Shown here: one piece after another, positions 1 through 20,149 of the stretch
Layout of the letters: every line of letters starts with the position of its first letter
How positions within the stretch are numbered: position 1 is the first letter of the stretch
Origin: Elusimicrobiota bacterium
GTDB lineage: Bacteria; Elusimicrobiota; Elusimicrobia; 2-02-FULL-39-32
NCBI GenBank assembly: GCA_021730935.1
Contig: JAKFYJ010000017.1
Location: 1-36,546, forward strand
Direction of reading: 5' to 3'
DNA: 36,546 bases
Notes under the pieces: generated by a model
Databases searched by the model: none
The model's input: only the letters and a program-made list of their open reading frames with translations
What the model was told of the DNA's origin: nothing
Made by a program: the position numbers and the translations under genes

Positions 1-1
1 G

Positions 2-505
2 ACAGGGGGAATTATCCTCCTGCAGGTCAATGACCTGGTCACAGCCGCGGCAAACCAAATTTCAGCCGATGGCGGAGCAGGAGGAGCGGGAGCCAACGGT
101 CAGGACGGAATCATCGGGGATTATGGTTCGGGCGGAGGCGGCGGCGCCGGAGCGCACGGAGCCTCGGGCGGCGCGATAAAGATTTCAGTAAACACCTCCC
201 ATTTAACAGCCAATTCCGTGTCAGCAAAAGGCGGAAGCGGCGGGGCGGGAGGCAAAGGGGGCACTGGTTCCAGAGGTGACGGGACTCTTGTTGCAGGCGG
301 AGCCGGAGGAACCGGAGGAGTTTTCACCTCTGGCTTTGATCCTGGAGGTGCGGGCTTGGGAGGATCAGGGTTTCCCGCAGCTTCAGGCGGAGGAGGCGGC
401 GGCGCTGGTGGAAACGCCGGCCATGGCGGAAAAATCCGCCTTGAATACGGGAACAATTCCAGCAGTCTTTCGACAGTCCCTGCCGCTTCAACACTGAAAT
501 TTTAA
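2..505 (+). CDS. Glycine-rich surface protein, C-terminal fragment
   Basis: This reading frame is open from the window edge to a TAA at 503-505, so only the last 167 residues are seen and the start lies outside. The sequence alternates runs of Gly/Ala/Ser (for example GGGGGAGAHGASGGAIKI) with short strand-like segments such as IKISVNTSHLTA and KIRLEYGN. This layout is typical of repetitive glycine-rich secreted or cell-surface proteins of environmental bacteria. No enzyme motif is visible. The fragment ends about 80 bp before the pump operon. The proline-rich reading on the opposite strand is an artefact of the GGC/GGA codons. Surface location is inferred from composition; the exact function is unknown. 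Confidence 0.7.
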   Translation, partial: TGGIILLQVNDLVTAAANQISADGGAGGAGANGQDGIIGDYGSGGGGGAGAHGASGGAIKISVNTSHLTANSVSAKGGSGGAGGKGGTGSRGDGTLVAGGAGGTGGVFTSGFDPGGAGLGGSGFPAASGGGGGGAGGNAGHGGKIRLEYGNNSSSLSTVPAASTLKF

Positions 506-588: not shown

Positions 589-2307
589 ATGAAACCCAAC
601 GAAGGCAAACAGATTTTGGTCGTCGATGACGATCTGGAACTTTGCCATGTCATCGTGGACACTCTCGCCGAACAGGGATACCGCGCCACCTATGTGGAGA
701 CCACCGAAGACGCGCTCAAGAAAATAAACGCGAAAGTCCCGGACCTCATCCTCATGGATCTTGAAGTGCCCAGCATGGGCGGCTTCGTCCTCTGCCAGAA
801 AATCCACGAAAATCCCGCGACTCAAAATATCCCGATCGTTTTTCTTTCCGTGCGCGATTCCGACATCGACAAGAAGACAGCCATGAGCCTGGGCGCGGAC
901 CTTTATATCACCAAACCCTTCCGGCGGAGCGTGCTCCTGAAAGAAGTGGAAACGCTCCTCGTCAGAAAGACGGAAGAGACCGACGTGATCGGCCCTTCCG
1001 CCTCACACCTGCAGAAAATCGCCGAGAAAGCCGCGCCGGAAAACCCCGTTGAGGCGCAACCCGAAGAGCCGAAACAAAAAGCAGGCTCTGAAGAACCGGC
1101 CAGCCCAAATTTGAAAGCCGTCGATCTCACCGCGAAAAAGGGGTTCAAACATTATTTCAACGCGGCGGCGGCAGTCCTTGGCCCCATGCTCAAAAAAATA
1201 TGGGCCTGGAGCAACCTCAACAAAAAAGCGGCCATCGCTTCAGGGTTCGCCTTGTTCCTTTTGCTCGCGGGCGGGAGCGTGAGCTTGTTCCGATATATCG
1301 CGACGCACGGTTCTCAGAAAGCGGAGAAAGGCGGAGACGGAGGGGAAGTCTCGGTCAATGTGGTGCAGGCGGCCCTGGCGCCGTTCCAGGACGTGCTTTC
1401 CAATGTGGGAACCATCAAGGGCGGATCGGAAATCGAGCTCCGCTTCCAGACGGAAGGCAACATCCGCGCCATCAATTATCACGACGGGGACGCGGTGCGG
1501 GCGGGAGCTGTCATCGCTCAGCTGGACCAGACCCAGTCTTCCATCAAGCTGGACCGCGCCAAACAGGAATATTATCGTTATGAAAAACTTTATGCCCTGG
1601 GCGGCGTTTCCAAAGACCGCCTCGAGGAAGCGCGCGGACAGCTGGATTTTGCCCAAAGCGAAATCAACAAAACCATTTTGAGGGCCAACCAGGACGGGAT
1701 CTTCGGCGGCAAAGACGCTTCCGTCGGAGAATTTGTGACTCCCCAGAAAAAAATCGGGACCATGGTGAGCATCAACTCCGTGGTGGTGAGCATCGGGGTC
1801 ATCGAAAAGGAAATCGACAAAATTTTTCCGGGCCAGAGAGTGATCGCGACCGTGGAAACATACCCCAACGTGGAATTCAAAGGCAAAGTGGAAACGATTT
1901 CTCCGCTCATTGAAGGCGGCGCCAAGACCGTGGAAATTCAGGCCAGGATCCCCAACGACGGAAAACTCCTGCTCCCCGGCATGTTCGCCCGCACTCGCAT
2001 TGTGGTTTATGAAGCGGACAGCGTGATGTCGGTCCCCAACGACGCGGTGGAAAAGACGGCGAACGGATATCAGATTTATGTGGTCGGCGCAGACAACAAG
2101 GCGGAAGCCCGGCCCGTGGAAGTGAGCTATGTTTCTCTCGTCAACAGCGTCATCTCCAAAGGGCTTCAGCCCGGCGAAAAAGTGATCATCCAAAAACCTC
2201 AAGACCTCAAAGCGGGAACGCCCGTCAAAGTTGCCGATGTTGAAAAGCCCGTCGGGGAAGGCGCGGCCGCAGACGCCCTTGGAGGCGCAGGAGAACAGAA
2301 GCCATGA
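589..2307 (+). CDS. Response-regulator receiver fused to RND membrane-fusion (adaptor) protein
   Basis: A 572-residue protein with three parts. Residues 8-125 are a CheY-like receiver with acidic pair D13/D14, phospho-acceptor D57 (in LILMDLEVPSMGG), switch S87 and K109. Residues 126-212 are a charged, Glu/Pro-rich linker. After one membrane helix (about 214-235), residues 252-550 form an HlyD/AcrA-type periplasmic adaptor: a lipoyl-like half (GNIRAINYHDGDAVRAGAVI), a short helical hairpin and beta-barrel domains (VISKGLQPGEKVII). Topology is consistent: receiver in the cytoplasm, adaptor in the periplasm. ATG at 589 is preferred over the TTG two codons earlier because it fits the receiver start. 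Its stop overlaps the next gene, a histidine kinase, as ATGA. Receiver domains normally carry DNA-binding or enzymatic outputs, so fusion to a pump adaptor is unusual. Domain calls are confident; phospho-control of the pump is inferred. Confidence 0.88.
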   Translation: MKPNEGKQILVVDDDLELCHVIVDTLAEQGYRATYVETTEDALKKINAKVPDLILMDLEVPSMGGFVLCQKIHENPATQNIPIVFLSVRDSDIDKKTAMSLGADLYITKPFRRSVLLKEVETLLVRKTEETDVIGPSASHLQKIAEKAAPENPVEAQPEEPKQKAGSEEPASPNLKAVDLTAKKGFKHYFNAAAAVLGPMLKKIWAWSNLNKKAAIASGFALFLLLAGGSVSLFRYIATHGSQKAEKGGDGGEVSVNVVQAALAPFQDVLSNVGTIKGGSEIELRFQTEGNIRAINYHDGDAVRAGAVIAQLDQTQSSIKLDRAKQEYYRYEKLYALGGVSKDRLEEARGQLDFAQSEINKTILRANQDGIFGGKDASVGEFVTPQKKIGTMVSINSVVVSIGVIEKEIDKIFPGQRVIATVETYPNVEFKGKVETISPLIEGGAKTVEIQARIPNDGKLLLPGMFARTRIVVYEADSVMSVPNDAVEKTANGYQIYVVGADNKAEARPVEVSYVSLVNSVISKGLQPGEKVIIQKPQDLKAGTPVKVADVEKPVGEGAAADALGGAGEQKP

Positions 2308-3767
2308 AAATACGCGCGCGGTTCGCTCTCTTCTCGATCTTCCTGACAGCCGTCATCGTTTTCGGAACGAGTTTCGCCTCTCTCTATTTCCTGAAAGCCC
2401 TGGTCCTCAAAGAAATCCAGACAAGCCAGGTCGCTGTCGTCCAAAACCTCAAGAAAGTCTGCGAAGAATCCCTCATTTCCAGAGACGACATCCTGATCAT
2501 CAATTATATCAGCTCTCTCCAGCGCACCGTCCGCGGCCTGGCCTATGCGGTTTTCGTCAACAAACAGCGCGGCCTCGTCCTTGGAAAAAATCAGATTTTC
2601 GAGGAGACCATCGGCAAAGAAGACGCCGCTCTCAGCCGCCCGGGGGGAAACACCTTTGAAACTCTGAAATCCTCGTCGGACAAGAAAATCATAAACCTGA
2701 CCGAAGACGTCATCATGCAGTCGCTCGTGGGGACAGCATATCTCGGGTTTTATGAAAGCAAAGTGGAAGACAACATTCAGGAATCCATTCAGCGCATCAC
2801 CCGCATCATCATTTTCGTCTCGCTCGGCGCGTTTTTGATCGGCCTTGTGATCTCTCTCATTTTTGCCGTGCAGTTCGCGGAACCCATCAACCAGCTCGCC
2901 AAGGGCGCTCAGGCGATTGGGGAAGGAAACCTGGACACGCATCTGGACATCGACCGCAAAGACGAGATCGGCCTCTTGGCCAACGAATTCAACACCATGG
3001 CGGTGAAACTCAAGGAACTGGACAAGCTGAAAGATGATTTCGTCTCCAGTGTTTCCCATGAGCTCCGGAGTCCTCTCACAGCGATCAGCGGATATGTGGA
3101 ACTGCTCACGATGAAACCCATCGACAAACTCAATCCCGAGAAAGCGAAAAAAGCGCTCGACATCATTCTCGAGAGCACCACGCGGCTGACCACCTTCATC
3201 AACGACATTTTGGATGTGGCCAAGATCAAGGCCGGGAAAATGGAACTGCATAAAACGAATTTTAAAATCGGCGAGACGGCGGAAAGCATATTTTCCCTCT
3301 TTCAGCCCCTGTTCCAGAAAAAGAGCATCACCGCCTCGCTTGAAATTCCCCAAAACCTGCCTGCCATCCCCGCCGACGGAGAAAAGGTCCGGCAGGTCAT
3401 TCAGAATTTGCTTTCCAACGCCTTCAAGTTCACGCCGGACGGAGGAAAAATCACCCTCTCGGCTTCGCTCCTTGAGGGCGCAGAGCCTTCGATCAAAGTG
3501 TGCGTGAAAGACACGGGGCCGGGAATTCCCAAAGAGCATCAGCACCTGATCTTCGGAAAGTTCCAGCAGGTCCCGGGGACCAAGGACATGGTGAAGGGCC
3601 CCAAAGGAACGGGGCTGGGCCTGGCCATCGTCAAGGGCATTGTGGAGTCGCACGGCGGGCAAGTGGGATTTGAGAGCGAACCCGGGCAGGGAACGAAGTT
3701 CTTTTTCACTCTCCCGACGCAGGGACAGACTGGAAAAGTCACCGTTGAAGCCAAACAGCTGGCATAA
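2304..3767 (+). CDS. Membrane-bound sensor histidine kinase
   Basis: A 487-residue sensor kinase. TM1 is about residues 8-30, an extracytoplasmic sensor region about 31-165, TM2 about 167-190, and HAMP about 190-240 (ends AVKLKELDKLKDDF). The HisKA domain has the phospho-acceptor H252 in SSVSHELRSPLTAI. The HATPase domain shows the N box (VIQNLLSNAFKFTPDGG), G1 (VKDTGPGIP) and G2 (GTGLGLAIVKGIVESHGG). All catalytic motifs are intact. The start ATG overlaps the stop of the receiver-adaptor gene (ATGA), suggesting translational coupling and making that receiver the obvious phosphotransfer partner. The sensor region has no recognised fold; it may detect envelope stress or a pump substrate (inference). 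The next gene follows after 10 bp. Confidence 0.93.
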   Translation: MKIRARFALFSIFLTAVIVFGTSFASLYFLKALVLKEIQTSQVAVVQNLKKVCEESLISRDDILIINYISSLQRTVRGLAYAVFVNKQRGLVLGKNQIFEETIGKEDAALSRPGGNTFETLKSSSDKKIINLTEDVIMQSLVGTAYLGFYESKVEDNIQESIQRITRIIIFVSLGAFLIGLVISLIFAVQFAEPINQLAKGAQAIGEGNLDTHLDIDRKDEIGLLANEFNTMAVKLKELDKLKDDFVSSVSHELRSPLTAISGYVELLTMKPIDKLNPEKAKKALDIILESTTRLTTFINDILDVAKIKAGKMELHKTNFKIGETAESIFSLFQPLFQKKSITASLEIPQNLPAIPADGEKVRQVIQNLLSNAFKFTPDGGKITLSASLLEGAEPSIKVCVKDTGPGIPKEHQHLIFGKFQQVPGTKDMVKGPKGTGLGLAIVKGIVESHGGQVGFESEPGQGTKFFFTLPTQGQTGKVTVEAKQLA

Positions 3768-3777
3768 GGAGTCATTC

Positions 3778-4434
3778 ATGAACCAAAGATCCATCGCGGG
3801 AATTCTTGTTTTCGCCGTTTTTGCGGCGGCGCCCCTCAGGGCGGAAGAGATCAGCGCGTCTCAAAGCTATAAATTGACGGCCCAGCCGGCGCTCCCGACT
3901 CTGTCGCTTCCGGCGGTTGCCGCGAAAGTGAACGGGGAAGAAATTTCGATCAACAAGTTTTGGAACGCTCTCGTGGCCGCTTCCGGCAACACGGTTTTAA
4001 ACGGGATGATCGAAGAGATTCTCCTCAATCAGGAGTTCGGCAAAAAATTTAAAAAACCGAAAACGGTCAACGCCAGGATTTCAGCCCAGGTTGACGAGCG
4101 TATCGCGGACATCAGGAAGCAGTTCCCGACGGAAGAAGCGTTCGTTTCGCGCCTCCAAAGCTCGGGGCTGGGACTTGAGGATCTCAAAAAGCAGGTCCGC
4201 CTTCAGATCGTGAAAGAAAAACTCATCGAGGATAAAATCAGCGTCTCCGCGAAAGAACTGAAAAAATATTGGGACGATAACAAGGACAAACTGCCCAAAG
4301 GGACCGCCTGGGACGACAAGACGAAGAAACAGCTCGAAAGCTATATGAAGCAGACCAAGTTCAACGACGAATATCCGAAGTATATTCAGGCCGTGCGGCA
4401 AAAATCAGACATCAAAATTCTGCTCAACCCATAA
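3778..4434 (+). CDS. SurA/PrsA-like periplasmic chaperone without PPIase domain
   Basis: A 218-residue exported protein. ATG at 3778 was chosen because AAGGAG lies at 3766-3771 with 6 bp spacing and the protein then begins with a clean signal peptide (hydrophobic core GILVFAVFAAAP, likely cleavage near LRA/EE). The same frame is open further upstream inside the kinase gene, but that extension would bury the signal. The mature part resembles the N-terminal chaperone domain of SurA and related foldases: AAKVNGEEISINKFW, then a helical region with LIDDKI-like spacing (VKEKLIEDKISVSAKELKKYW). The parvulin-type isomerase domain is absent. Its place between a kinase and pump permeases suggests a role in folding or assembling envelope parts of the pump (inference). 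Family assignment is moderate. Confidence 0.72.
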   Translation: MNQRSIAGILVFAVFAAAPLRAEEISASQSYKLTAQPALPTLSLPAVAAKVNGEEISINKFWNALVAASGNTVLNGMIEEILLNQEFGKKFKKPKTVNARISAQVDERIADIRKQFPTEEAFVSRLQSSGLGLEDLKKQVRLQIVKEKLIEDKISVSAKELKKYWDDNKDKLPKGTAWDDKTKKQLESYMKQTKFNDEYPKYIQAVRQKSDIKILLNP

Positions 4435-4458
4435 TCGCCTCCGAAAGGAACTGAGCCC

Positions 4459-7400
4459 ATGAAGTTTATCCGCTTCGCCGTCGAAAGGCCGGTCACCACG
4501 GCGATGGCTTATGGCGCGCTTGTGCTGGTGGGCATGATCGCGCTCTTCCTCCTGCCCCGCGAACTTTTCCCGACCATCAATTATCCCGAACTCCTCGTCG
4601 TCACGCGATACGGCTCAGCCGCGCCGGAAGAAATTGAAAGCATCATCACCAAGCTGATCGAAGAACAGACCGGAACGGTCCCCAACCTCAAGCGCGTGAG
4701 GTCCATCTCAAGAGAAGGCGTCTCCATCGTCGTGCTCGAATTCAACTGGGGCGCGGACATGGGCCTGGCGCACCTGGCCGTCCGCGAAAAAATCGACCTC
4801 ATCAAAGACAGGCTCCCGGTTGAAGCGGAAGCGCCCGTCATCCAGCGCCACAATCCTTATGAACAGCCCATGATGATCCTCTCGGTTTCCGGAGACATGA
4901 GCCTGCACGACCTCACCCAGCTTTCCAACGACGTCATAAAAAAACGCCTGCAGAAAGTGCAGGGCGTGGCCTCCGCGACCGTGAGCGGGGGACAGGAACG
5001 CGAAATCCTCGTCGAAATTGAGCCGGGGCGGCTGAACGCCTCCAACATCTCGATCACGGGCATCGTGGACTCCCTCAAAAACTCCAATGTGAATTATCCC
5101 GCAGGAAGCACGCAGGGCCGGTCCTTTGAATATCTTGTCCGAACCATCGGCGAATTTAAAAACATCCAGGACATCGGAACCACGGTGGTCGCGGTGGACG
5201 CGCCGAGAGGGAGCGCGGAATCCATATTCAAATATCAATTTCAGAAACGGGGCGAAAGTTTTCAGCCGAAAGCGCAGAGGCTCCTGCCTTTGGGAAGCAT
5301 CGCGCAGGTGAAAGACGGCTTCAAAGACATCGAGAGCTATTCGCGCCACAGCGGCAAACCCAACATTTCCATCGGCATCCAAAAACAGTTCGACGCCAAC
5401 ACCATCAAGACCGCGAGCCGCCTGAAAGACGCCCTCAAAGAACTCCACATGAGCCTGCCCAAAGAGTGCCGGATAGAAGTGGTTTATGATGAATCGCTTT
5501 TTATCAAAGGGTCTCTGCAGGATGTGACGATGGACGCCGTGCTGGGCGCGGTCCTGGCCTTCGCCGTGCTTTATTTCTTCCTCGGAAGCCTGCAGGACGC
5601 TTTCGTGGTGACCCTGGCTCTGCCGCTCTCCATTCTCGTCGTGTTCATCTGCATGTATTTCACGGGCCGAAGTCTCAATGTCATTGCGCTTGCGGGACTT
5701 TCCCTCGGCATCGGGAGCATGATCGACAACGCCATTGCCGCGCTCGACAGCATCGTGCAGGCCAGGAAAAAAATTCCGGACCCCAAGGAGGCCAGCATCG
5801 CGGGCGTCTCGGAAATCGCGGTCGCGCAGGTTTCCTCCATGTTGACCAACATCACGGTGTTCCTCCCGCTCCTCTTCGCCAAGGGCGTGGCCCAACAGCT
5901 TTTCAGCGATTTGTTTTTTGCGGCCGTGGTCTCCAACATCGGAGCGCTCGTGGTCGCGCTCACGCTCCTGCCCCGCATCACGGCTTATCCCATCAGCTGG
6001 CTTGAAAAGAAAAAAACTGAGCCCGGAACAGAAGTGAAAACTCATGGACTCTGGCAGATGTTCAAACGGGGGCTCACGGAAGGGCAGACTCAGGCCATGC
6101 TCGACAAATACAGAAAACTCCTTGAGAAGGCCCTCGAAAACCGAAAAGCCGTGATGCGGTTTTCCGTCATCGCGTTCGTGATTTCTCTGGCGATCCTGGG
6201 GTTCAAGGAAAAAATATTCCTGCCCAAAATTGATCAGGGCCAGTTTTTGGTGAAGGTGAACATGCCCATGGGAACGCGCCTGGAAGTGACGAACCGCGTG
6301 ATGTCCCGCGTCGAGAAAGCCACGGGGGAAATGCAAGAGGTGAAAGACACCCTCGTCCGCGTGGGGTCCAGTTCCGAAGAATCCATTGAAGCCCTGGGTT
6401 CGCATCAGGGCGAGTGCATCGTCTCTCTTGACCGCAAGAAATTCAGCGGGGCCACGGAAGACGCGATCCTCATCCTGCGCAAAAAACTGGCCAAAGTCCC
6501 TCTCGAAGGCGCCGAAATTGAATATCTGCTCTCGGATTCCTCCATCAAGTCCGTCACGGGAGGTTCCGCCCCGATCGCCATCACCATCAAGGGCCCCGAC
6601 CTCGGAGTCCTGAGAAAAATGTCCGACGACATCCAGGCTAAACTAAAAAATATCGAAGGGTGCGAAGGCATCAAGACCAGCCTCGCCCTGCCCACTTTTG
6701 AAACGCGGGTCTCCATCGACAAAGACCGCGCCAGCGGGTTCGGCCTTTCCGTTTCCGACATTGCGCGCGCTTCCCTGATCGGCATCCGGGGTTTCGTCGC
6801 GACTTATTTTAAACAGGACGGACACGAAATTCCCATCCGCGTCCGCCTCCGGGCCGAAGACCGGGACAACCCCGCCGCGATCCAGCGCATCGCCGTCCGT
6901 TCGCCGCAAGGGTTCATGGTTCCGCTGGGCGATGTCGCCACCATCACCGCCGGGCTCGGACCCAGCGAAATTCAGCGCATGGATCAGCAGAGAGCGCTCG
7001 TGGTTTCAGCCCAAATTTTAGGCCGGAGCCAGGGCGACGTCATCAAAGACGCTGAAAAAATGCTGGAACCATACGCCAGGACGAAGGATTATACCGTCGA
7101 GCTTGGAGGCGCGAAAAAAGAAATGAGCGAATCCTTCGGCGGCCTCGTGATCGCCTTTATCCTCGCCGTGGTTTTGATATACATGATTATGGCCGCGGGC
7201 TTTGAATCCATCCTCCACCCGTTTTTGATCATGATCACGGTCCCTCTGGGCGTGGTCGGCGTGGTCATCACCATGCTGGTCACCTTCACTCCCATCAGCG
7301 CGCCGGTCCTTTTGGGCGTGGTTCTGCTGGGCGGAATCGTGGTGAACAACGGCATCGTTCTCGTGGACCACATGAATTATCTCCGCAAGGAAGAAGGCTT

Positions 7401-7686
7401 GCCGCTCAAGGAAGCCGTCATTGAAGGCTGCGTCAACCGCCTGCTTCCGGTCGTGATGACCGCCCTCACCTCCATCCTCTCTCTGATCCCGGTGGCGATG
7501 GGGCTTGGACAAGGCACCGCGATCGCGGCTCCCATGGCTCTTGCCACGCTCGGCGGTCTGATGGTCTCCACCGCCCTCACCATGTTCGTCATGCCGATTT
7601 TATATCTGACCGTTGAAGAAAGGCGTTCCAAAGGCGGGCTGATCGCCAGGAGCGCCAGGAAATCCAGCGGGATGATTCTCGATTGA
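4459..7686 (+). CDS. RND-family efflux permease, first of a tandem pair
   Basis: A 1,075-residue inner-membrane AcrB/Mdt-type transporter with the usual two-fold repeat: TM1 (starting FAVERPVTTAMA), a large periplasmic porter region, TM2-6, a linker, then TM7 and the second repeat through TM12. Length is normal. An AGGA lies about 11 bp before the ATG. In TM4 the motif is SMIDNAIAALD: D423 is kept, but N424 replaces the second aspartate of the classical VDDAIV relay. TM10 has VVNNGIVLVD instead of the lysine seen in AcrB. The gene overlaps the second permease by TTGA. It would export hydrophobic or amphiphilic compounds using the proton gradient together with the fused adaptor at 589-2307; the substrate is unknown. 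The changed relay residue may mean altered coupling or a division of labour with its partner. Confidence 0.93.
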   Translation: MKFIRFAVERPVTTAMAYGALVLVGMIALFLLPRELFPTINYPELLVVTRYGSAAPEEIESIITKLIEEQTGTVPNLKRVRSISREGVSIVVLEFNWGADMGLAHLAVREKIDLIKDRLPVEAEAPVIQRHNPYEQPMMILSVSGDMSLHDLTQLSNDVIKKRLQKVQGVASATVSGGQEREILVEIEPGRLNASNISITGIVDSLKNSNVNYPAGSTQGRSFEYLVRTIGEFKNIQDIGTTVVAVDAPRGSAESIFKYQFQKRGESFQPKAQRLLPLGSIAQVKDGFKDIESYSRHSGKPNISIGIQKQFDANTIKTASRLKDALKELHMSLPKECRIEVVYDESLFIKGSLQDVTMDAVLGAVLAFAVLYFFLGSLQDAFVVTLALPLSILVVFICMYFTGRSLNVIALAGLSLGIGSMIDNAIAALDSIVQARKKIPDPKEASIAGVSEIAVAQVSSMLTNITVFLPLLFAKGVAQQLFSDLFFAAVVSNIGALVVALTLLPRITAYPISWLEKKKTEPGTEVKTHGLWQMFKRGLTEGQTQAMLDKYRKLLEKALENRKAVMRFSVIAFVISLAILGFKEKIFLPKIDQGQFLVKVNMPMGTRLEVTNRVMSRVEKATGEMQEVKDTLVRVGSSSEESIEALGSHQGECIVSLDRKKFSGATEDAILILRKKLAKVPLEGAEIEYLLSDSSIKSVTGGSAPIAITIKGPDLGVLRKMSDDIQAKLKNIEGCEGIKTSLALPTFETRVSIDKDRASGFGLSVSDIARASLIGIRGFVATYFKQDGHEIPIRVRLRAEDRDNPAAIQRIAVRSPQGFMVPLGDVATITAGLGPSEIQRMDQQRALVVSAQILGRSQGDVIKDAEKMLEPYARTKDYTVELGGAKKEMSESFGGLVIAFILAVVLIYMIMAAGFESILHPFLIMITVPLGVVGVVITMLVTFTPISAPVLLGVVLLGGIVVNNGIVLVDHMNYLRKEEGLPLKEAVIEGCVNRLLPVVMTALTSILSLIPVAMGLGQGTAIAAPMALATLGGLMVSTALTMFVMPILYLTVEERRSKGGLIARSARKSSGMILD

Positions 7687-10600
7687 ACTTCATAAAATTC
7701 TTCGTCGACCGCCCCATCGCGGCTCTCATGACCTTCTCGGTCCTGACGCTCCTGGGACTGATCTGCCTCTTCCGCCTGCCTGTGGACCTCATGCCCGGCA
7801 CGGACTCCGGAGTGCTCACCATTTTTGTCGGCATCCGGGGAGGCCTGCCGCCTGAAGACATCGAATCCCTCGTCACCAAACCCGTTGAAGACGAAATGTC
7901 CACGCTCCCCAATCTGGAGAGCATCACTTCCGTCTCCAGAAAAGAGCGCGCCGTCATCACGCTCAACATGAAAACCGGAACCGATTCCGCCATGGCCGCT
8001 CTCGAAGTGGAAGGCCGGCTCGACAAGATCAAAGGCAAACTCCCTCGGGAAATTGAGGAACCCGTCATTTCGCGATATGACGAAGGACAATCTCCCGTCC
8101 TCATCCTTGCCCTCTCTTCCAAACAGCTCACGCCGGAAGAAATGCGCGAAGTGGCGGACAACCAGCTCAAACCCCTCCTCAAGAAGAAAGACGGGGTGGC
8201 CAACATCGAGATCGGCGGCGGCCGCGAAAGAAAAATCCTCGTGGAGTTCGACAAGACCCGCCTCGAGGCCTATGCCATTCCCATCCGCCAGGTCGTGAGC
8301 CAGATCGGCCTGGAAAACCTGAACCTGCAGGTGGGGAAAAACCAGCGCGACAAACAAGACGTCGGCGTCCGCATGCAGGGCGCGTTCAAAAATATGGAAG
8401 AAATCGGGCGTCTCCCGATCTCGGTCACGAAAGAAGGGTCCAGAATATTTTTAAAAGACATCGCCGAAATCCGCGATTTTTATCTCGAGCCCGAATCTTA
8501 TTCCCGGCTGAACCGCGAACCCGTCGTCTCCATCTATATCCAAAAAGAAGCGCAAGCCAACACCGTGGGCATGGCGAAAGAAGTCAAAGGGGCCATCGAG
8601 GAGTTCAAGAAAACTCTGGACCCCCGAATCACGCTCTCCATCGTCTCAGACCAGTCCATCGCCGTCGAGAAAGCGCTCAAGAATGTGCGGGACTCCCTCA
8701 TCATCGGAGCCCTGCTCGCGGGCGTGGTCCTCCTCGCGTTTTTGAAAGACATGCTCTATGCCTCCTTCATCTTCGTCTCCATCCCGCTTTCGCTCATCCT
8801 CTCCCTCATCCTCATGTCCGCCTTCAATTTGTCTCTCAATGTGATGACCATCTCGGGCCTGGCCATCGCCACGGGCATGGTCGTGGACGATTCCATCGTC
8901 GTGCTGGAAAACATTCTCCACCACCGTTCCCGACTGCTCCGGAAAATGCACGGGTTCATTTCAAAATCCCGCACGGCCATGATGATTGAAGACGAGAGCG
9001 AAGAAACGCTCATGGAGAAACACGAGATCCCTCTCCTGGCCACAAAAGAAATGATGCTGGCGCTTGCCGCCTCCACCGCCACCCGGGTGATCGTGTTCCT
9101 GCCGATCCTGTTTTTGAACCCGCAAGTGCGCGCGCTTTATTCCGGCCTCGCCATCACTGTCACCGCGTCTCTGCTTTTTTCCCTGCTCGTGGCCGTCACC
9201 GTCATTCCCTCGCTCGCTTCCAATGTGCCCGAGGCCTGGATCAAGGAAAGTTCGTTCCGGTCCAAATATGTCTGGCTCTTCGTCGAGAGCAGGTTCCGGC
9301 GGATCAAAGAAATTCTGCACGATTTTTTTATCAAAGCGATGGAATTTTATGCCAAACGCCTGAAACGGAAAAAATCCTCCTCCGACGACATGATCACGAC
9401 ATCCTCCCTCGGCGCCAGACGGTTTTCCATCGGTTCGCGCGTCGGTTCCATGAAGTCGAACGCGGCCGCCATCTTCCGGATATTTTTCATCGTTATTTTT
9501 TCAATCCTCGTTTTCATCGCGGTCTATGGCACGGCGTTCAAATGTTTTCAGAACTGGTCCCTGGGCCTCAAGTGGCTGAAACATTTCGCTTTCATCTTCA
9601 AAGGCTATGACGTCATCCTCCGCCTGAACGCCTGGGCGCTCACGCTCCTCATCGCGTTGGCCTCCCTCGCCGCCGTTTCCTTTTTCCGATATCGCCAGCT
9701 CGTGGCCTTCGCCATGCGCAAACGCGTCTGGGTGATGGGGATCCTCCTCCTCGTGCTCTTTGACTGCGGCGTTTATTACCGTTCCCTCGACAAGGAGTTC
9801 GTGGGGTCCACGGAAGAGAACGAGTTCATCATCTTTGTGGAACTGCCTTCAGGGACCAAGCTCGCTGTCTCCGACAAGGTGGTGTCCGCCGTCGAGAAAG
9901 CGGTCAGCGAAACGCAGGAAGTCCAGAAGTCGGTCAAAACCTCGGTCGCGCGCGTGGAAGGCTGGTCCTCCAAAATTTATGTCACCCTCGTCTCCCAGGC
10001 CGAGCGGACCAAGACGACCCAGGACATCATCAAGATGCTCCGCCCCGTCATCTCAAAAATCGGACAGGAACACGACGCTTTCGTCTATTTTTCCGAGCCC
10101 GTGAGCTCCAAAGAATTTTTGATCGACGTCTTCGGTTTTGATTATGGAAAACTCCGGGACGTCGCGGTGTCCATCTCCCAAAAGATTGAAAAAGTTCAGG
10201 GCCTCGCCGACATAAAATTGCGATATAAAGAAGGCCGCCCCGAAGTCCGCATCGAGATGGACCGCGAAAAAGCGTCGCTCTTCCAGTTCTCCGTGCAGGA
10301 TGTGGCCGAATCTCTCCACGCGCAGATCCGCGGCCTCCGCGCCACTTATTTCCGCACCCCGACCGCGCAGGTGGAAACGGTCGCGCGCCTGCAGGAACAA
10401 TACCGCAAAACCCTTGAAGACGTGGAACTCTTGACGCTCATCAATCCCAAAGGCACCATCGTCCCGATCCGCCAGTTCGCGCAATTTAATTTCGGCCTGA
10501 CGCCCAGCGAAATCTGGCGCAAAGACCGCGAACGCATGATCCAGGTGAGCGCCAACCGCGGAGACCTCTCTCTCAACAAAGTGGCCCTCGAAGTGGAGAA

Positions 10601-11207
10601 ATCGCTCGACGGCCTCAAAATTCCGCCGGGATATTATTATGAATACGGAGGCGACTTCCCCAAAATGGTGGAGACCGAAAAAGAGTCCCGCTTCGCCTTC
10701 ATCATTATGGTGCTTTTGATTTATGTCGTCCTGGCGAGCCTGTTCGAATCTTATCTTCAGCCGCTCGTGATCCTGACCGCCGTGCCCCTCACGATCATCG
10801 GCGCCATCCCCTTGCTTTATCTCACCAAAACGCCCATCACCCTGGGCTCCATGATCGGCTTCATCATGCTGGGGGGGATCGCGGTCGGAAACTCGATCAT
10901 CCTGGTGGACGTGCTCAACCATATCCGCAAAGAAACAGGCATTTTAAAGGCCCTTTTACTCGCCGGGAAAGAACGCACAAGGCCTATTTTAATGACCTCC
11001 CTGACCGCCATTTTGGGTCTCCTGCCCCTGGTCATTGAACAGGAGGGGGGAGGGTCCCTTTGGGCGCCTTTGGCAATCACAGTCATCGGCGGACTCACGG
11101 CCTCCACAATCCTCGTTTTATTCGTTTTGCCGGCCTTTTACCTGCTCATGGAAGACGCCAAGGCCTATCTCCGCAAACTCGTCTCCAAACGCTTTAAACC
11201 TGCCTAA
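7683..11207 (+). CDS. RND-family efflux permease, second of a tandem pair, with extra membrane insert
   Basis: A 1,174-residue RND permease, about 100-150 residues longer than usual. The start is a TTG at 7683 overlapping the previous stop (TTGA); it gives the expected family N-terminus NFIKFFVDRPIAAL, and no better start lies nearby. TM4 keeps both relay aspartates, D402 and D403 (MVVDDSIVVLEN); TM10 reads IAVGNSIILVD. Between TM6 and TM7 (about residues 520-680) is an unusual insert with a basic, Ser-rich stretch (KRLKRKKSSSDD) and two extra hydrophobic helices, about 597-620 and 647-670. With the first permease it probably forms a hetero-oligomeric pump like MdtBC (inference from tandem arrangement). 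Its stop TAA directly abuts a 270-bp repeat element. Confidence 0.92.
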   Translation: MNFIKFFVDRPIAALMTFSVLTLLGLICLFRLPVDLMPGTDSGVLTIFVGIRGGLPPEDIESLVTKPVEDEMSTLPNLESITSVSRKERAVITLNMKTGTDSAMAALEVEGRLDKIKGKLPREIEEPVISRYDEGQSPVLILALSSKQLTPEEMREVADNQLKPLLKKKDGVANIEIGGGRERKILVEFDKTRLEAYAIPIRQVVSQIGLENLNLQVGKNQRDKQDVGVRMQGAFKNMEEIGRLPISVTKEGSRIFLKDIAEIRDFYLEPESYSRLNREPVVSIYIQKEAQANTVGMAKEVKGAIEEFKKTLDPRITLSIVSDQSIAVEKALKNVRDSLIIGALLAGVVLLAFLKDMLYASFIFVSIPLSLILSLILMSAFNLSLNVMTISGLAIATGMVVDDSIVVLENILHHRSRLLRKMHGFISKSRTAMMIEDESEETLMEKHEIPLLATKEMMLALAASTATRVIVFLPILFLNPQVRALYSGLAITVTASLLFSLLVAVTVIPSLASNVPEAWIKESSFRSKYVWLFVESRFRRIKEILHDFFIKAMEFYAKRLKRKKSSSDDMITTSSLGARRFSIGSRVGSMKSNAAAIFRIFFIVIFSILVFIAVYGTAFKCFQNWSLGLKWLKHFAFIFKGYDVILRLNAWALTLLIALASLAAVSFFRYRQLVAFAMRKRVWVMGILLLVLFDCGVYYRSLDKEFVGSTEENEFIIFVELPSGTKLAVSDKVVSAVEKAVSETQEVQKSVKTSVARVEGWSSKIYVTLVSQAERTKTTQDIIKMLRPVISKIGQEHDAFVYFSEPVSSKEFLIDVFGFDYGKLRDVAVSISQKIEKVQGLADIKLRYKEGRPEVRIEMDREKASLFQFSVQDVAESLHAQIRGLRATYFRTPTAQVETVARLQEQYRKTLEDVELLTLINPKGTIVPIRQFAQFNFGLTPSEIWRKDRERMIQVSANRGDLSLNKVALEVEKSLDGLKIPPGYYYEYGGDFPKMVETEKESRFAFIIMVLLIYVVLASLFESYLQPLVILTAVPLTIIGAIPLLYLTKTPITLGSMIGFIMLGGIAVGNSIILVDVLNHIRKETGILKALLLAGKERTRPILMTSLTAILGLLPLVIEQEGGGSLWAPLAITVIGGLTASTILVLFVLPAFYLLMEDAKAYLRKLVSKRFKPA

Positions 11208-11530: not shown

Positions 11531-11598
11531 AGTCCATTTATTTGGCCCTAAACCTGGCAATTCTATTGCATCACCTTTGTCTGGACAGGGATAATAAA

Positions 11599-14500
11599 AT
11601 GAATAAACAAATTGAAGCTAAAAACCCTAATAAGACGGCCCTTCTGGCGGGCTTTTTTACCCTTGCCCTCTGCCTGGCCGCGGGGTCCCTTTTCGCCGAA
11701 GATATGTCAGGAAACGGCTTGAAATTGAGACGCAGCGCCGTGAACGCCGGGGGAGAAACCTCAATCTCTGCCGCGCCCAAATATAACCTGACCCTTGCCC
11801 AGACCGATTATGAAACCTCTTATTCCGTTTCCGCCACTGCCGCCAACTCTGTTTATCCCGGAATCATCAACCAGATCGCTCACCCGGACGCGATCCTGAA
11901 CATGTCAGGCGCCGAAATCGGCCAGGCCCAGATTCAGATTTCCTGGACGACCCCCAATTTTGAAGACGGCAACGCCTCGGCAACCGGAACCTATATCGTG
12001 AAATGGTCCACGAATGTGCCCCTGAACGATGAGCTGAATTTCGCGACAGCCACCCTCGTCAATCAGGCCTGGACGCCCCTTGCAAGCGGTCAGGCGGACA
12101 CCCGGATCCTCAGCAACCTCCCGACAGGGACTTCAGTTTATGTCGCCATCAAAGCCAAAGATACCGCCGGCAACACGGCCTATGCGTCTTCCGGCACAGC
12201 CAGCTGGCAGGGCGTGTTCGTTTCCTCCGCTCCCATGGGGCCCGTCATCACGGCGACCGCGGTTGGAACCAAATCCATCAAATGGGACTGGGAAACCCAG
12301 ATGGGGAACACCGAAGTTTTCATCAGCACGATCGTTGAAACTTCCAGCGCCCCGATCTTTTCCAAAAACACCACAACATACACTTCTCTCCCCGTCCTTC
12401 CCGGACCGAACCAGCTCGTGACCTTCAAGATGAAAGCCCTCAACAAATTCTGGGAATCCGCCGAGACCGTCCGGTCAACTTATACGCTGGCCGAGGTTCC
12501 GGGGAAACCCAAGGTTATATACATTTCAGGATTAAATGATTACGCTTTCCTAACAATTGATCCAGTAAACAACCCCGCTCATACTGAATACGCTATTTTT
12601 GTCGAAGTGAGCAATCCACGAAGCAAGCATAATAATTCGTATGTTCCTGCGAGCGGAGACATGGACTCTGCCAGCGCGACTCCCATATGGCAAACTGCTT
12701 CTGACTGGAAAGCAAATTTCAAAATTCAGGGCTTTGACGGTTTCATGCAATACAGCATTTATGTCATTGCTCGCAATGCGGATGGGATTGCGTCTCAAAA
12801 ATCACTTCCTGAGAAATTCTTCACTTACCCGAAAGGACCTTCGATTAATTTTTTGAGCGGACTTAAAGACAAGTCATGGACGAATGTGATGACCAATTCT
12901 TTCATTGCCATCAATTCCGCTCACTATCACTATGACTTCAATTCAAAGAATTTTAACCCATTTGAATCCCTTGATGTGATCCCCGACGACAATTCGGTTG
13001 GAACTGCATTTTTTTCGACAGAAACAATAACCATATCGGCCCTGTACGAAGGCCAGTGGAACCTTTTTGTTATCGGCGATCTCCATGGATATATGCCTGA
13101 TCCTTCCACAGTTATTGATGAGCATCTTCCCCTGGGCACCAAATCATTCCAAATCAACGTTGACACCACACTTCCTGTCATTTCCCATATGAGCGCTCAA
13201 TTTTCACCCACCGACACCAGCTCTATCAGCGACGGGAAGAAGACCTCGAGGTCTCAGGTATATTTCAAATGGTATTCGGACGACATCGACTTAAGTAAAG
13301 ATGTAAACGCGGCCAAGCGGGTCTCCCCTCTCCAGTCCTATGAAATCAATTTCTCCACGGGGCTCCAGGCCGGGACGGGAAACTCCGCCATCATTTCTGC
13401 CAGCGCCGCGACGGCTTATTTCAGGCTGGACGATCCCAAAGCGGGCCGCGCTGACAACACCTATCTCTTCACGGTCCGCGCACTGGACGCCGCAGGGAAC
13501 TGGGGCCCCATCAGCACCTTCACTTATGTTTATCAGAAAGACATCGTGAACCCCGTCCCCACCATCAAACCCATTTCTCCCGTGCGCCTGAAAAACAACG
13601 GGCCTTATATGTCAGTCAGAAGCTCTTCCGTCACCGTCACTTTCGATAAAGACATGCTGACCGAAACTTTCTCCGCGAGCAACATCCGCCTCCTCGGCCT
13701 GAGAGACAACATGGCCGTGGACCAGGTTCCGGCGGTGAGCGTGGCCGTCAGCACTCAATATGATCCCGCAACCCGGACCCTCATCATCTGGGCGGCGAAC
13801 GCGCAGGACCTGAAACGCGGCTGGCTCTATGAGCTCACCCTCAGCCAATCCATCACGGACATCGGCAATGTGGGACTTGCGCAGGATTATACGGCGGAGT
13901 TTGAAACGCTTTTGGATCCCAGCATTCAGAACAGGATCAAGGCCGCGGACGGGGAAACCCTCGTGGACCTTCCCGCAGGCTCCATGACGGAAGATGTTTC
14001 CGTTGGAGTCGGCGTGATTCAGGGCGGCATCGCCCAGGCGCCCTCGAGGAAATCCGGAAGCCCGGCCTGGGACACGCCTCTTTATTCCAGCATGGAATCC
14101 ATCTCCTCAGCCAACCAGAAGATCAAGACCCTGCTCGGCGCTTTCGCCCAGCCCGTCACCATCCGCGATTTCAACGCCATCCGCGAAGACGGAACCCCCG
14201 TCAAATCCCGCTTCAACGACCATGTCCAGATCACCATGCCTTATCTCGACAAGGACAACGACGGCTATGTCGACGACACCTCGCCCCGGATCCGCGTGAA
14301 AGACCTGCAGGTGTTCGTGCTCGACGAAACCAACAATGTCTGGCAGAAACTTCCCAACGGAGAGGTGGACACCAACGGCAAGAAAAGCCTTTCCAGCGCT
14401 CTCCATTTCTCGATCTATGCGGTCTTCGGCGTTCCCAACGCGGACGTCACCAATTCCTATGCCTATCCCGTGCCCTTCAAACCTTCCGAAGGCCACAGCA

Positions 14501-14718
14501 AAATCACTTTCGCTCTTCTGCCCAGCGAGGGCAGCATCCGCATTTTCACCGTTTCCGGCCAGCTCGTCAAAACGATCAGCTTCAACGACCCCCTGGACGG
14601 CAAGCTCGAATGGGATGTTAAAAATGAGGATGGACAAAACCTCGGAAGCGATGTATACCTATATATCATTCAAAGCGGGGAGAACAAGAAAACTGGCAAG
14701 ATTATGGTGATCCGATGA
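11599..14718 (+). CDS. Secreted multidomain Ig/fibronectin-like protein with FlgD/type-A-sorting-like C-terminus
   Basis: A 1,039-residue exported protein. ATG at 11599 is chosen over an in-frame TTG at 11542 because it follows AGGG and starts directly at a signal peptide (core LLAGFFTLALCLAAG, cleavage near LFA/ED). Residues about 90-210 and later blocks have Fn3-like spacing (YIVKWSTN, TSVYVAIKAKDTAGN). About residues 675-770 resemble a Big_5/SbsA-like Ig domain (SVTVTFDKDM ... YELTLSQSITDIGN). The end, from YAYPVPFKPSEG through VRIFTVSG-type strands to GKIMVIR, matches the FlgD-like or type-A sorting domain of secreted cargo. It overlaps the PorV-like gene (ATGA), supporting a cargo and outer-membrane partner relation. 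A central stretch, about 12513-13300, is clearly more AT-rich than the flanks. Ligand or substrate is unknown. Confidence 0.82.
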   Translation: MNKQIEAKNPNKTALLAGFFTLALCLAAGSLFAEDMSGNGLKLRRSAVNAGGETSISAAPKYNLTLAQTDYETSYSVSATAANSVYPGIINQIAHPDAILNMSGAEIGQAQIQISWTTPNFEDGNASATGTYIVKWSTNVPLNDELNFATATLVNQAWTPLASGQADTRILSNLPTGTSVYVAIKAKDTAGNTAYASSGTASWQGVFVSSAPMGPVITATAVGTKSIKWDWETQMGNTEVFISTIVETSSAPIFSKNTTTYTSLPVLPGPNQLVTFKMKALNKFWESAETVRSTYTLAEVPGKPKVIYISGLNDYAFLTIDPVNNPAHTEYAIFVEVSNPRSKHNNSYVPASGDMDSASATPIWQTASDWKANFKIQGFDGFMQYSIYVIARNADGIASQKSLPEKFFTYPKGPSINFLSGLKDKSWTNVMTNSFIAINSAHYHYDFNSKNFNPFESLDVIPDDNSVGTAFFSTETITISALYEGQWNLFVIGDLHGYMPDPSTVIDEHLPLGTKSFQINVDTTLPVISHMSAQFSPTDTSSISDGKKTSRSQVYFKWYSDDIDLSKDVNAAKRVSPLQSYEINFSTGLQAGTGNSAIISASAATAYFRLDDPKAGRADNTYLFTVRALDAAGNWGPISTFTYVYQKDIVNPVPTIKPISPVRLKNNGPYMSVRSSSVTVTFDKDMLTETFSASNIRLLGLRDNMAVDQVPAVSVAVSTQYDPATRTLIIWAANAQDLKRGWLYELTLSQSITDIGNVGLAQDYTAEFETLLDPSIQNRIKAADGETLVDLPAGSMTEDVSVGVGVIQGGIAQAPSRKSGSPAWDTPLYSSMESISSANQKIKTLLGAFAQPVTIRDFNAIREDGTPVKSRFNDHVQITMPYLDKDNDGYVDDTSPRIRVKDLQVFVLDETNNVWQKLPNGEVDTNGKKSLSSALHFSIYAVFGVPNADVTNSYAYPVPFKPSEGHSKITFALLPSEGSIRIFTVSGQLVKTISFNDPLDGKLEWDVKNEDGQNLGSDVYLYIIQSGENKKTGKIMVIR

Positions 14719-16658
14719 ACTACATCAAGAGCGTTATCCTTGCCGGCCTCCTCGTCCCGGGTTTCCTGGGCACCGCCGCCGCAGCCCCCGGCCGCACGGG
14801 GACCAATTATCTTAAAATCGATGTCGGCGCAAAAGCCACCGCTCTCGCCGGAACCCAGTTCGCAACCGAAAACGATTCTTTCGCGCAGTATTATAACCCC
14901 GCCCTCATGAGCGGCATCAGCCAGAAAGAAATCGGCTTCATGCACAGCGAGTTCGTGCAGGACGTCCGCCAGGAAGCCTTTGCTTATGTTTATCCCACCA
15001 TCAACCGCGGGAACTTCGCGGCCTCTTTCGATTATTTCACCTACGGCAAAATCAGCGGCTATGACGCCACCGGCGGAAGCATCGGGGACATCACGGCGAG
15101 CGACATCACGATCGGCGGCAGTTGGGCCAAGAAGTGGGACCTGGTTTATGGCGAGCGCCGGATCGAAGACTTTTCCACCGGAGCGTCTCTCAAAATTCTT
15201 TCCAGAAAACTTTACAGCGATTCCGCCGCGGGTTTCGCCCTCGACCTCGGCGCAAGCTATCCGTTCCACCACAGACGCCTCCACGGCCTGCGCGCGGCCT
15301 TTGCGGTTCAGAACCTGAGCAACGGCATCAAATTCAAAAACGAGTCCAGCCCTCTTCCCCGGATCATCCGCATGGGTTTCGCCTATTCCTGGTGGGGAGA
15401 AGCCATGACCGCGACTTTGGACGAAGTGGTCCCCGCCGACAACACGCCTTTCGCGGCTCTCGGCCTGGAATATAAAATACGCAAGATGGTGAGCATCCGC
15501 CTGGGATATAAAGGCGAAAAGAAGACGGACCAAAAAGTGAGTTATGGTTTCGGTTTCGAAAACCCGATTTTCCGTCTGGATTATGCGTTCGTGCCTTATG
15601 ACGATCTCGGCAACACTCACCGGATTTCGGTGATCTATCGTTTCGGAAAAACCACCCGTCGGGCCACGGCGGACGACCAGCTCAAACGCAAGCTCAAAGA
15701 CGCTCAGGAATATTACGCCCAGGGCCTGCTCGTGGACGCCTTCGTGATTTCCTTCCAGCTCCAGCGCGTGGCTCCCTGGCTTGAAGAAAACAACAATTTC
15801 CTCGCCAAGGTTCAGAAAGATTTCAAGGAACTCGAAGAGAGCGACAAGAAAGAAAAACTGCTCCAGCAGGCGCAGGCCCTCTTCAACAGAGCGGAACAGT
15901 TCTTTGACGCCGGAAACCTGCTTGACGCCCGCACCGAGTTCCAGGCCGTGGTGGCTCTCCAGCCCGACAACAAGGCCGCCCTGGGTTATCTGAACCACAT
16001 CGAAGGCCAGTTCAAATCCTTCATCGAGTCCTTCTATCGCGCCGCCATGATCGCGTTCGCCGAAGAAGATTATGCCAAAGCGAAAGAAGAGTTCGAGAAA
16101 GTTCTGGTGATCAACCCCGACCACGAAGAGTCCAAGGTCCAGCTCGCCAAATGCAACGAAATGCTCGAAACCAAGGCCAAGAAAGAGCAGGAAGAAGCGC
16201 AGAAGAATCTCGTCGAAAACACCTATAAAGACGCGATCGACGCCTATGGCAAAGGGAATTATGAAGACGCGTTCTCCCTCTTCAGCGAAGTCCTGAAGAT
16301 CATGCCTCAAAATTCGGAAGCCCAGAGATATTACGACCTCTGCAAAGAGACGATCTATACGAGCAGTCTCGCGAACGGCAAAGACAACGCCGCCAAGGGC
16401 AACTGGGACTCGGCCATCAAAAATCTCCGTAAAGCCAACGAGATCAATCCCACCAAAGAAGCTAAATCAGCCCTCGACGACGCGCAGAGACGCTGGGGCC
16501 TCCAGAAGAAAGTCATCAGCCAGAACCTCTATAAAGAAGGGCTCGAAGCGTTCCTCTCCGGCGACAAGGCGAAGGCCCAGGCCGCCTGGAAACGGGCCGT
16601 GGACCTGGACCCCGACAATGAAGAAGCGAAGCGAGGAATGCAGAGATTGAATCAATAA
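14715..16658 (+). CDS. PorV/PorQ-like outer-membrane barrel fused to TPR repeats
   Basis: A 647-residue protein. After a signal peptide (VILAGLLVPGFLGTAAAA) comes the typical PorV/UPF0164 opening TGTNYLKIDVGAKATALAG, then ATENDSFAQYYNPALMSG and beta strands ending about residue 311 (RISVIYRFG). From about residue 330 to the end there are tetratricopeptide repeats, for example AEEDYAKAKEEFEKVLVINPDHEE and GDKAKAQAAWKRAVDLDPDN. PorV-type barrels in type IX secretion bind the C-terminal signals of cargo. The overlapping upstream gene encodes a protein with such a C-terminus, so shuttle or anchor function is plausible. The long TPR tail is not part of classical PorV and would sit in the periplasm as a docking platform (inference). 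Family placement is good; exact role is not shown. Confidence 0.82.
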   Translation: MNYIKSVILAGLLVPGFLGTAAAAPGRTGTNYLKIDVGAKATALAGTQFATENDSFAQYYNPALMSGISQKEIGFMHSEFVQDVRQEAFAYVYPTINRGNFAASFDYFTYGKISGYDATGGSIGDITASDITIGGSWAKKWDLVYGERRIEDFSTGASLKILSRKLYSDSAAGFALDLGASYPFHHRRLHGLRAAFAVQNLSNGIKFKNESSPLPRIIRMGFAYSWWGEAMTATLDEVVPADNTPFAALGLEYKIRKMVSIRLGYKGEKKTDQKVSYGFGFENPIFRLDYAFVPYDDLGNTHRISVIYRFGKTTRRATADDQLKRKLKDAQEYYAQGLLVDAFVISFQLQRVAPWLEENNNFLAKVQKDFKELEESDKKEKLLQQAQALFNRAEQFFDAGNLLDARTEFQAVVALQPDNKAALGYLNHIEGQFKSFIESFYRAAMIAFAEEDYAKAKEEFEKVLVINPDHEESKVQLAKCNEMLETKAKKEQEEAQKNLVENTYKDAIDAYGKGNYEDAFSLFSEVLKIMPQNSEAQRYYDLCKETIYTSSLANGKDNAAKGNWDSAIKNLRKANEINPTKEAKSALDDAQRRWGLQKKVISQNLYKEGLEAFLSGDKAKAQAAWKRAVDLDPDNEEAKRGMQRLNQ

Positions 16659-20059: not shown

Positions 20060-20149
20060 TGGCGGAGGGGGAGAGATTCGAACTCTCGGTCCCGGTTAAA
20101 GGACACACGCTTTCCAGGCGAGCCGTTTAAGCCACTCACGCACCCCTCC
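20060..20149 (-). tRNA. tRNA-Ser (anticodon GGA)
   Basis: Read on the minus strand, the acceptor 5' arm GGAGGGG (20149-20143) pairs perfectly with CCCCTCC (20070-20064), followed by discriminator G and an encoded CCA (20062-20060). The anticodon loop contains CTGGAAA with anticodon GGA (UCC/UCU codons). A long variable arm and the T-loop GTTCGAATC fit a serine tRNA. It lies 30 bp after the kinase gene at 20180-22018, in the same direction. Confidence 0.96.

Follow-up and report, generated by a model that had tools for sequence, protein, structure and literature searches.

A receiver domain on an RND pump adaptor in a family of Elusimicrobiota, and its possible role as the output of the adjacent histidine kinase

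Two-component systems and transporters

Control of RND pumps by two-component systems is generally taken to be transcriptional; BaeSR, for its part, is linked to MdtABC. Other connections between phosphorelay proteins and transport are also known, in that two-component parts are fused to transporters in CbrA and in the Amt-kinase fusions. Adaptors of the HlyD/EmrA type partner ABC or MFS transporters and, to our knowledge, have no receiver domain. The RND proteins of MdtABC form an MdtB2C1 heterotrimer (PMC7015380). Outside RND systems, the transporter and kinase of Bce modules (BceAB-BceS) exert direct mutual control, such that BceS controls its own transporter (PMC10314905), and in the EpsW-EpsZ pair of Myxococcus the phosphorylated receiver EpsW~P works post-translationally, by directly activating a membrane enzyme (PMC12802240).

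The locus described here lies in the window, by which is meant the whole 36,546-nucleotide stretch of Elusimicrobiota DNA that was analysed. Like MdtABC-BaeSR of E. coli and MuxABC of Pseudomonas, it brings an adaptor, two RND proteins, a kinase and an OmpR-type receiver into one neighbourhood (window 589-11207; adaptor, both RNDs and kinase also lie together in the related genomes G001, G002 and G006). BaeR, however, is a separate DNA-binding protein, whereas here the receiver is on the adaptor and has no DNA-binding domain, and a separate DNA-binding regulator beside the kinase, present in other families, is absent from the fusion loci. In other words, the layout is like that of MdtABC-BaeSR with a BaeR-like receiver moved onto an MdtA-like adaptor. 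The protein has the adaptor domains, RLS motif and RND partner genes of AcrA/MexA-type adaptors (TIGR01730) but differs from them in its ~120-residue cytoplasmic receiver on a long linker, its transmembrane (TM) anchor and its short hairpin. The N-terminal TM helix and sizeable cytoplasmic part are reminiscent of HlyD/EmrA-type adaptors, in which the cytoplasmic part is needed for substrate recognition or assembly (PMC8277102). In Bce modules the kinase binds the transporter, whereas the phospho-acceptor of the present system is joined covalently to the pump. EpsW consists of a single free receiver domain and has a transferase as its target, whereas here the receiver is fused to an adaptor and its post-translational action is proposed. 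The CbrA and Amt-kinase fusions, finally, carry the kinase, which is the sensor side, whereas the adaptor fusion carries the output side, namely the receiver. No published equivalent with a receiver and an RND-pump adaptor in one polypeptide was found in the open literature searched, in keeping with the earlier note, whose author knew of no described system of this kind.

The fusion gene, its kinase and its probable pump

The genes and domains concerned are as follows.

589-2307, + strand: REC-adaptor fusion gene, P0001 (572 aa; Pfam/NCBIfam domains; same architecture in eight genomes of the family)
613-948, + strand: receiver domain (REC; Pfam Response_reg, residues 9-120; AlphaFold2 (AF2) pLDDT mostly > 90)
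973-1224, + strand: cytoplasmic linker, mostly disordered (pLDDT < 50 over residues 130-185), then helical from residue 187
1234-1290, + strand: single TM helix, residues 216-234 (hydropathy; AF2 helix 212-240)
1354-2232, + strand: RND periplasmic adaptor, residues 256-548 (TIGR01730; Foldseek)
1531-1668, + strand: short alpha-hairpin with RLS motif, helices 315-336 and 342-360 (22 + 19 residues; AF2)
2304-3767, + strand: membrane sensor histidine kinase with two TM helices, periplasmic alpha/beta sensor, HAMP, HisKA with H252 and HATPase_c
3778-4434, + strand: SurA/PpiC-like periplasmic protein with no clear catalytic domain, between kinase and RND1 (profile matches; homologues in G001 and G006)
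4459-7686, + strand: RND1, inner-membrane RND transporter (ACR_tran 718 bits; co-occurrence)
7683-11207, + strand: RND2, second RND transporter of the pair (ACR_tran 684 bits; pair conserved)

An earlier note, made from the letters alone, had described a single ORF in which an intact receiver and a linker lead, by way of one TM helix, to an HlyD/AcrA-type adaptor of an RND pump, followed by a complete membrane histidine kinase overlapping it by ATGA. Both parts of this description are borne out, the former by Pfam, NCBIfam, AF2 and hydropathy and the latter by the HAMP, HisKA and HATPase_c domains and a four-base overlap of the kinase start with the fusion end. The span of 589-3767 given in that note covers the fusion and kinase genes together; the fusion ORF alone occupies 589-2307 on the + strand and contains neither internal stops nor N. 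The receiver scores 84 bits with Response_reg (residues 9-120; cut-off 30.2), and its phospho-acceptor D57 (757-759) and the residues D13, D14, S87 and K109 are intact, exactly where they had been placed. The adaptor part scores 177.7 bits with TIGR01730 RND_mfp (residues 256-548; curated cut-off 94.9), and also matches HlyD_D23 (76.9 bits) and HlyD_3 (41.8 bits) in Pfam; its Foldseek matches are to AcrA and MexA (E 1e-27 to 1e-22) and also to MacA and BesA. Structure prediction of the whole fusion, which had been suggested as a check, recovers REC, TM helix and adaptor, with the receiver and the adaptor (254-555) confident and the placement of the domains relative to one another without confidence (pTM 0.45). 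The hairpin contains the RLS motif, by which adaptor hairpins dock to the channel (as defined in PMC3391258), in the form R330-x3-L334-x6-S341 (RxxxLxxxxxxS). In the fused orthologue of G003 the Ser is replaced by Ala, and Gln or Asp stands at the position of the Arg in related families, such that the motif finds no support as a fixed trait of the wider adaptor lineage. Given the short hairpin and the absence of the Arg in other families, how the adaptor engages the channel is uncertain. Just upstream of the fusion, window 1-505 encodes the C-terminal part of a glycine-rich repetitive protein truncated by the contig end.

An orthologue of the kinase adjoins the adaptor in 18 of 18 loci, and the pairing of kinase and adaptor is, as judged from these orthologues, older than the fusion. 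The periplasmic sensor domain of the window protein matches no Pfam family; a weak sCache_3_2 match in one orthologue (E 0.015) is not significant, and Foldseek matches to the kinase are mainly to its core. In G001 the fusion-adjacent kinase is split over two frames (G001:C119:5315-6632, L043), reflecting a frameshift in either the assembly or the gene.

RND1/RND2 (4459-11207) is the probable partner pump, since the pair co-occurs with the adaptor and has no other adaptor adjacent to it. Indeed, among 235 genomes of the class, RND1 orthologues (at least 46% identity, partial matches included) occur in 19 and the adaptor in 18, with both in 17, the adaptor only in 1, RND1 only in 2 and neither in 215 (Fisher p = 1e-22, relatedness ignored). 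The one genome with the adaptor and no RND1 orthologue, G003, has an RND2 fragment at 63%. The gene order is repeated in G001, G002 and G006, with a membrane-TPR protein and/or SurA-like gene intervening; in G007 and G008 (genus g6), however, the fusion-kinase pair and RND1/RND2 lie on different contigs, and there the partnership rests on co-occurrence. Outside the fusion family no adaptor gene lies beside the RND pair in any stretch examined. The pair there is often preceded by an outer membrane efflux protein (PF02321), an orthologue of which is present in the source genome G000 (C66:3655-5484, 37%), and in G022 an uninterrupted stretch of ~20 kb (C44:61638-81835) takes in the adaptor and kinase, the regulators, the PorV/TPR proteins, the outer membrane protein and both RND genes.

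Downstream of the pump, window 11542-16658 encodes a PorV-TPR protein and a large protein whose C-terminal tail is of the type IX secretion kind. In other families, too, homologues of the two occupy this neighbourhood (L048, L089, L090), which points to a possible link between the pump and the export of surface proteins. The remainder of the window contains two proteins that match mainly the sigma-54 DNA-binding domain PF04552 (16717-17808 and 18907-19992), a similar gene being found just upstream of the G022 adaptor (L048:5459-6580); a tRNA gene on the minus strand (20063-20149; Rfam RF00005); and an ORF of 3593 residues with only weak TPR and phosphoribosyltransferase matches (25452-36233).

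Distribution, descent and selection

The earlier note had also proposed a search for REC+HlyD architectures. Across 341 genomes of the phylum, the adaptor orthologue is found in 18 and is fused in 8, every one of these next to the orthologous kinase; all eight belong to one GTDB family of uncultured Elusimicrobia, in which the fusion is present in eight of nine genomes and five of six genera, and none was found outside it among the 341. In these counts, as in the p values given here, related genomes and sequences are treated as independent, and E-values from searches of single genomes cannot be set beside those of whole-database searches. The source genome G000 (2.7 Mb), of which the window is contig C19, is 95% complete. 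The family genome without the fusion, G005, is 80% complete in 320 contigs and has neither adaptor nor kinase. Of the seven further genomes that carry the fusion, six have it as gap-free ORFs of 537-738 aa; that of G006, with a run of N inside the linker, was left out of the gap-free count. The G004 fusion (G004:C106:4390-6606, L042) has two tandem receivers, both catalytically intact. Beyond the phylum set, no other REC-HlyD fusion covering both parts appears among the best 5000 plasmid matches, and a search of genome contigs, which reaches close relatives only, gave fusions solely in Elusimicrobia.

The ten remaining genomes with the adaptor, from four other families, encode an orthologous protein (39-46% identity overall, higher across the adaptor part) with a cytoplasmic, often proline-rich, N-terminal tail and no receiver. 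There, where the contig is long enough, adaptor and kinase are followed by stand-alone regulators, among them one of OmpR type (REC + Trans_reg_C), a hybrid kinase and one of NtrC type. The fusion loci have no OmpR gene, and the fusion itself has no Pfam match to the winged-helix Trans_reg_C domain; the fusion family does, however, have a stand-alone OmpR paralogue elsewhere in the genome, on contig C43 in G000, beside an FtsH-like protease gene, which in related families precedes the adaptor. In a receiver tree of 49 rows the nine fused RECs form a single clade (100/99), the first G004 copy having a long branch (0.85) within it. The sister of this clade (98/93) is the stand-alone OmpR regulators of the fusion family, and the next branch is the kinase-adjacent regulators of other families. 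The fused REC is therefore nested among OmpR-type RECs, i.e. it descends from the OmpR/PhoB family, and the possibility that it was taken from an unrelated regulator is rejected by the tree. The simplest reading would be one duplication of the regulator in the family ancestor, followed by one graft of a receiver onto the adaptor.

All nine fused RECs retain an intact set of catalytic residues (acidic pocket, phospho-Asp, Thr/Ser and Lys), and pairwise dN/dS is 0.026-0.147 for the receiver and 0.054-0.142 for the adaptor, compared with 0.32-0.66 for the linker. By this measure the fused REC is under strong purifying selection; the intact active site and the dN/dS values reject a degenerate receiver. 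The kinase-facing helix alpha1 reads L-C-[Q/H/E] in fused RECs and [L/I]-C-[Q/E] in the kinase-adjacent regulators, compared with I-[C/S/A]-[S/D] in the stand-alone OmpR paralogues of the fusion family. The output side is different. The residues that we take to make the OmpR dimer, E96, D101, E111, R115 and K117 in PhoB numbering, are lost in nine of nine fused RECs, being replaced by S/G/N, L/F/Q/R, V/Q/Y/H/F, E/V and E/A, respectively, whereas stand-alone OmpR regulators mostly retain them, with E96 and K117 the main ones to vary. More broadly, over 80 positions conserved among kinase-adjacent regulators, 12 of the 23 in alpha4-beta5-alpha5, the dimer interface (PMC4773095), are lost in fused RECs, compared with 7 of the 57 outside it (Fisher p = 0.0003, relatedness ignored). 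The face that replaces it is nearly uniform among fused RECs (KPFRRS...E), and so the re-specialised alpha4-beta5-alpha5 surface probably meets a new partner.

Proposed phosphorylation of the adaptor and its alternatives

The best explanation, and on balance a somewhat probable one, is that in this RND system, which would serve efflux or export, the adaptor doubles as the response regulator and phosphorylation gates the pump. In such a system the kinase (2304-3767) would autophosphorylate at H252 and the phosphoryl group would pass to D57 of the adaptor-borne REC, a transfer which the adjacency of the genes, the descent of the receiver and the kinase-facing helix together make likely. Once phosphorylated, the receiver would bind differently, through its alpha4-beta5-alpha5 face, to some partner on the cytoplasmic side of the inner membrane, for which RND1/RND2 and the kinase are the likeliest candidates. 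Through this binding the complex of adaptor, RND transporter and outer membrane channel would be gated, in either its assembly or its activity. Individual steps of the scheme have precedents in EpsW~P, with its direct action on a membrane enzyme, and in BceS, with its control of a transporter. Whether REC phosphorylation does affect the pump we regard as an evenly poised question, and the wider proposition, that phosphorylation of an Asp in its adaptor switches a tripartite pump's activity or assembly and thereby makes the pump itself the output of a two-component system, might equally well prove right or wrong. The earlier note had envisaged the phosphorylated domain as tethered through the membrane to the pump. 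The receiver is on the pump adaptor, as it said; mechanical transmission is the less likely part, since the linker is long, disordered and variable in length (59-167 residues across orthologues), such that tethered, phosphorylation-gated binding within the cytoplasm is likelier than rigid transmission. The REC would thus be a tethered binding module and not a lever pushing through the membrane. The fusion family retains its stand-alone OmpR regulator, and a kinase acting mainly via that regulator could count against gating of the pump.

This last consideration leads to the main rival, in which the REC docks the kinase on the pump, the kinase reads, in a Bce-like manner, how occupied the pump is or what state the adaptor is in, the signal exits via the stand-alone OmpR regulator and phosphorylation of the fused REC serves for feedback or release. 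Transporter-kinase complexes are known (PMC10314905), and the age of the kinase-adaptor pairing, the long tether, the retained paralogue and a REC that has kept its kinase-facing helix and lost its output dimer face are all commensurate with docking. The alpha1 of the stand-alone paralogue, however, has diverged from the ancestral sequence, such that it may have ceased to respond to this kinase, and the strong conservation of the new alpha4-beta5-alpha5 face suggests a phospho-responsive partner; docking is accordingly held to be a serious but rather unlikely alternative. In both of these readings the adaptor is a signalling subunit. Intact catalytic residues beside a degenerate OmpR output face would also suit a phosphate sink, of which DifD is a known example (PMC12802240), with the fused REC draining the kinase and damping stand-alone OmpR signalling in proportion to pump number. 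A new and nearly uniform output face is not expected of a pure sink, though, and the fusion to a pump adaptor would then be incidental, which makes this improbable.

Less credence still can be given to the remaining possibilities. That the REC is a relic of the fusion or a passive anchor with no regulatory function has nothing specific in its favour beyond the missing DNA-binding domain, and the low receiver dN/dS and an active site intact in all nine RECs, including both tandem G004 copies, leave it very little probability. Slightly less is accorded to cleavage of the linker by a protease, freeing a soluble receiver as a separate signal: the linker is long and disordered, and an FtsH-like protease gene is found ahead of the adaptor in related families and, in the fusion family, close to the OmpR regulator, but the freed REC would be without an effector domain. 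An artefact of assembly or gene prediction joining two genes is the least probable of all and is rejected. The N gap in the linker of one of the eight orthologues (G006) might hint at it, but seven gap-free fused ORFs come from separate assemblies in four genera, the fused RECs form one clade, and the fusion recurs in genomes of the family, always with the orthologous kinase.

In evolutionary terms the locus clearly illustrates how a regulator can be re-wired from binding DNA to serving a membrane machine: genomes that carry the graft have relatives that lack it, and in the graft the catalytic site and kinase-facing helix have been kept while the dimer face of the DNA-binding regulator has been lost. 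Phospho-control of the pump, if shown, would make the fusion more than a variant of known systems, and a phospho-acceptor within the adaptor would make control of the assembled pump, on a fast timescale, directly testable. If gating of this kind is true, the cell may control its pump by phosphorylating the pump itself, and not only through its genes.
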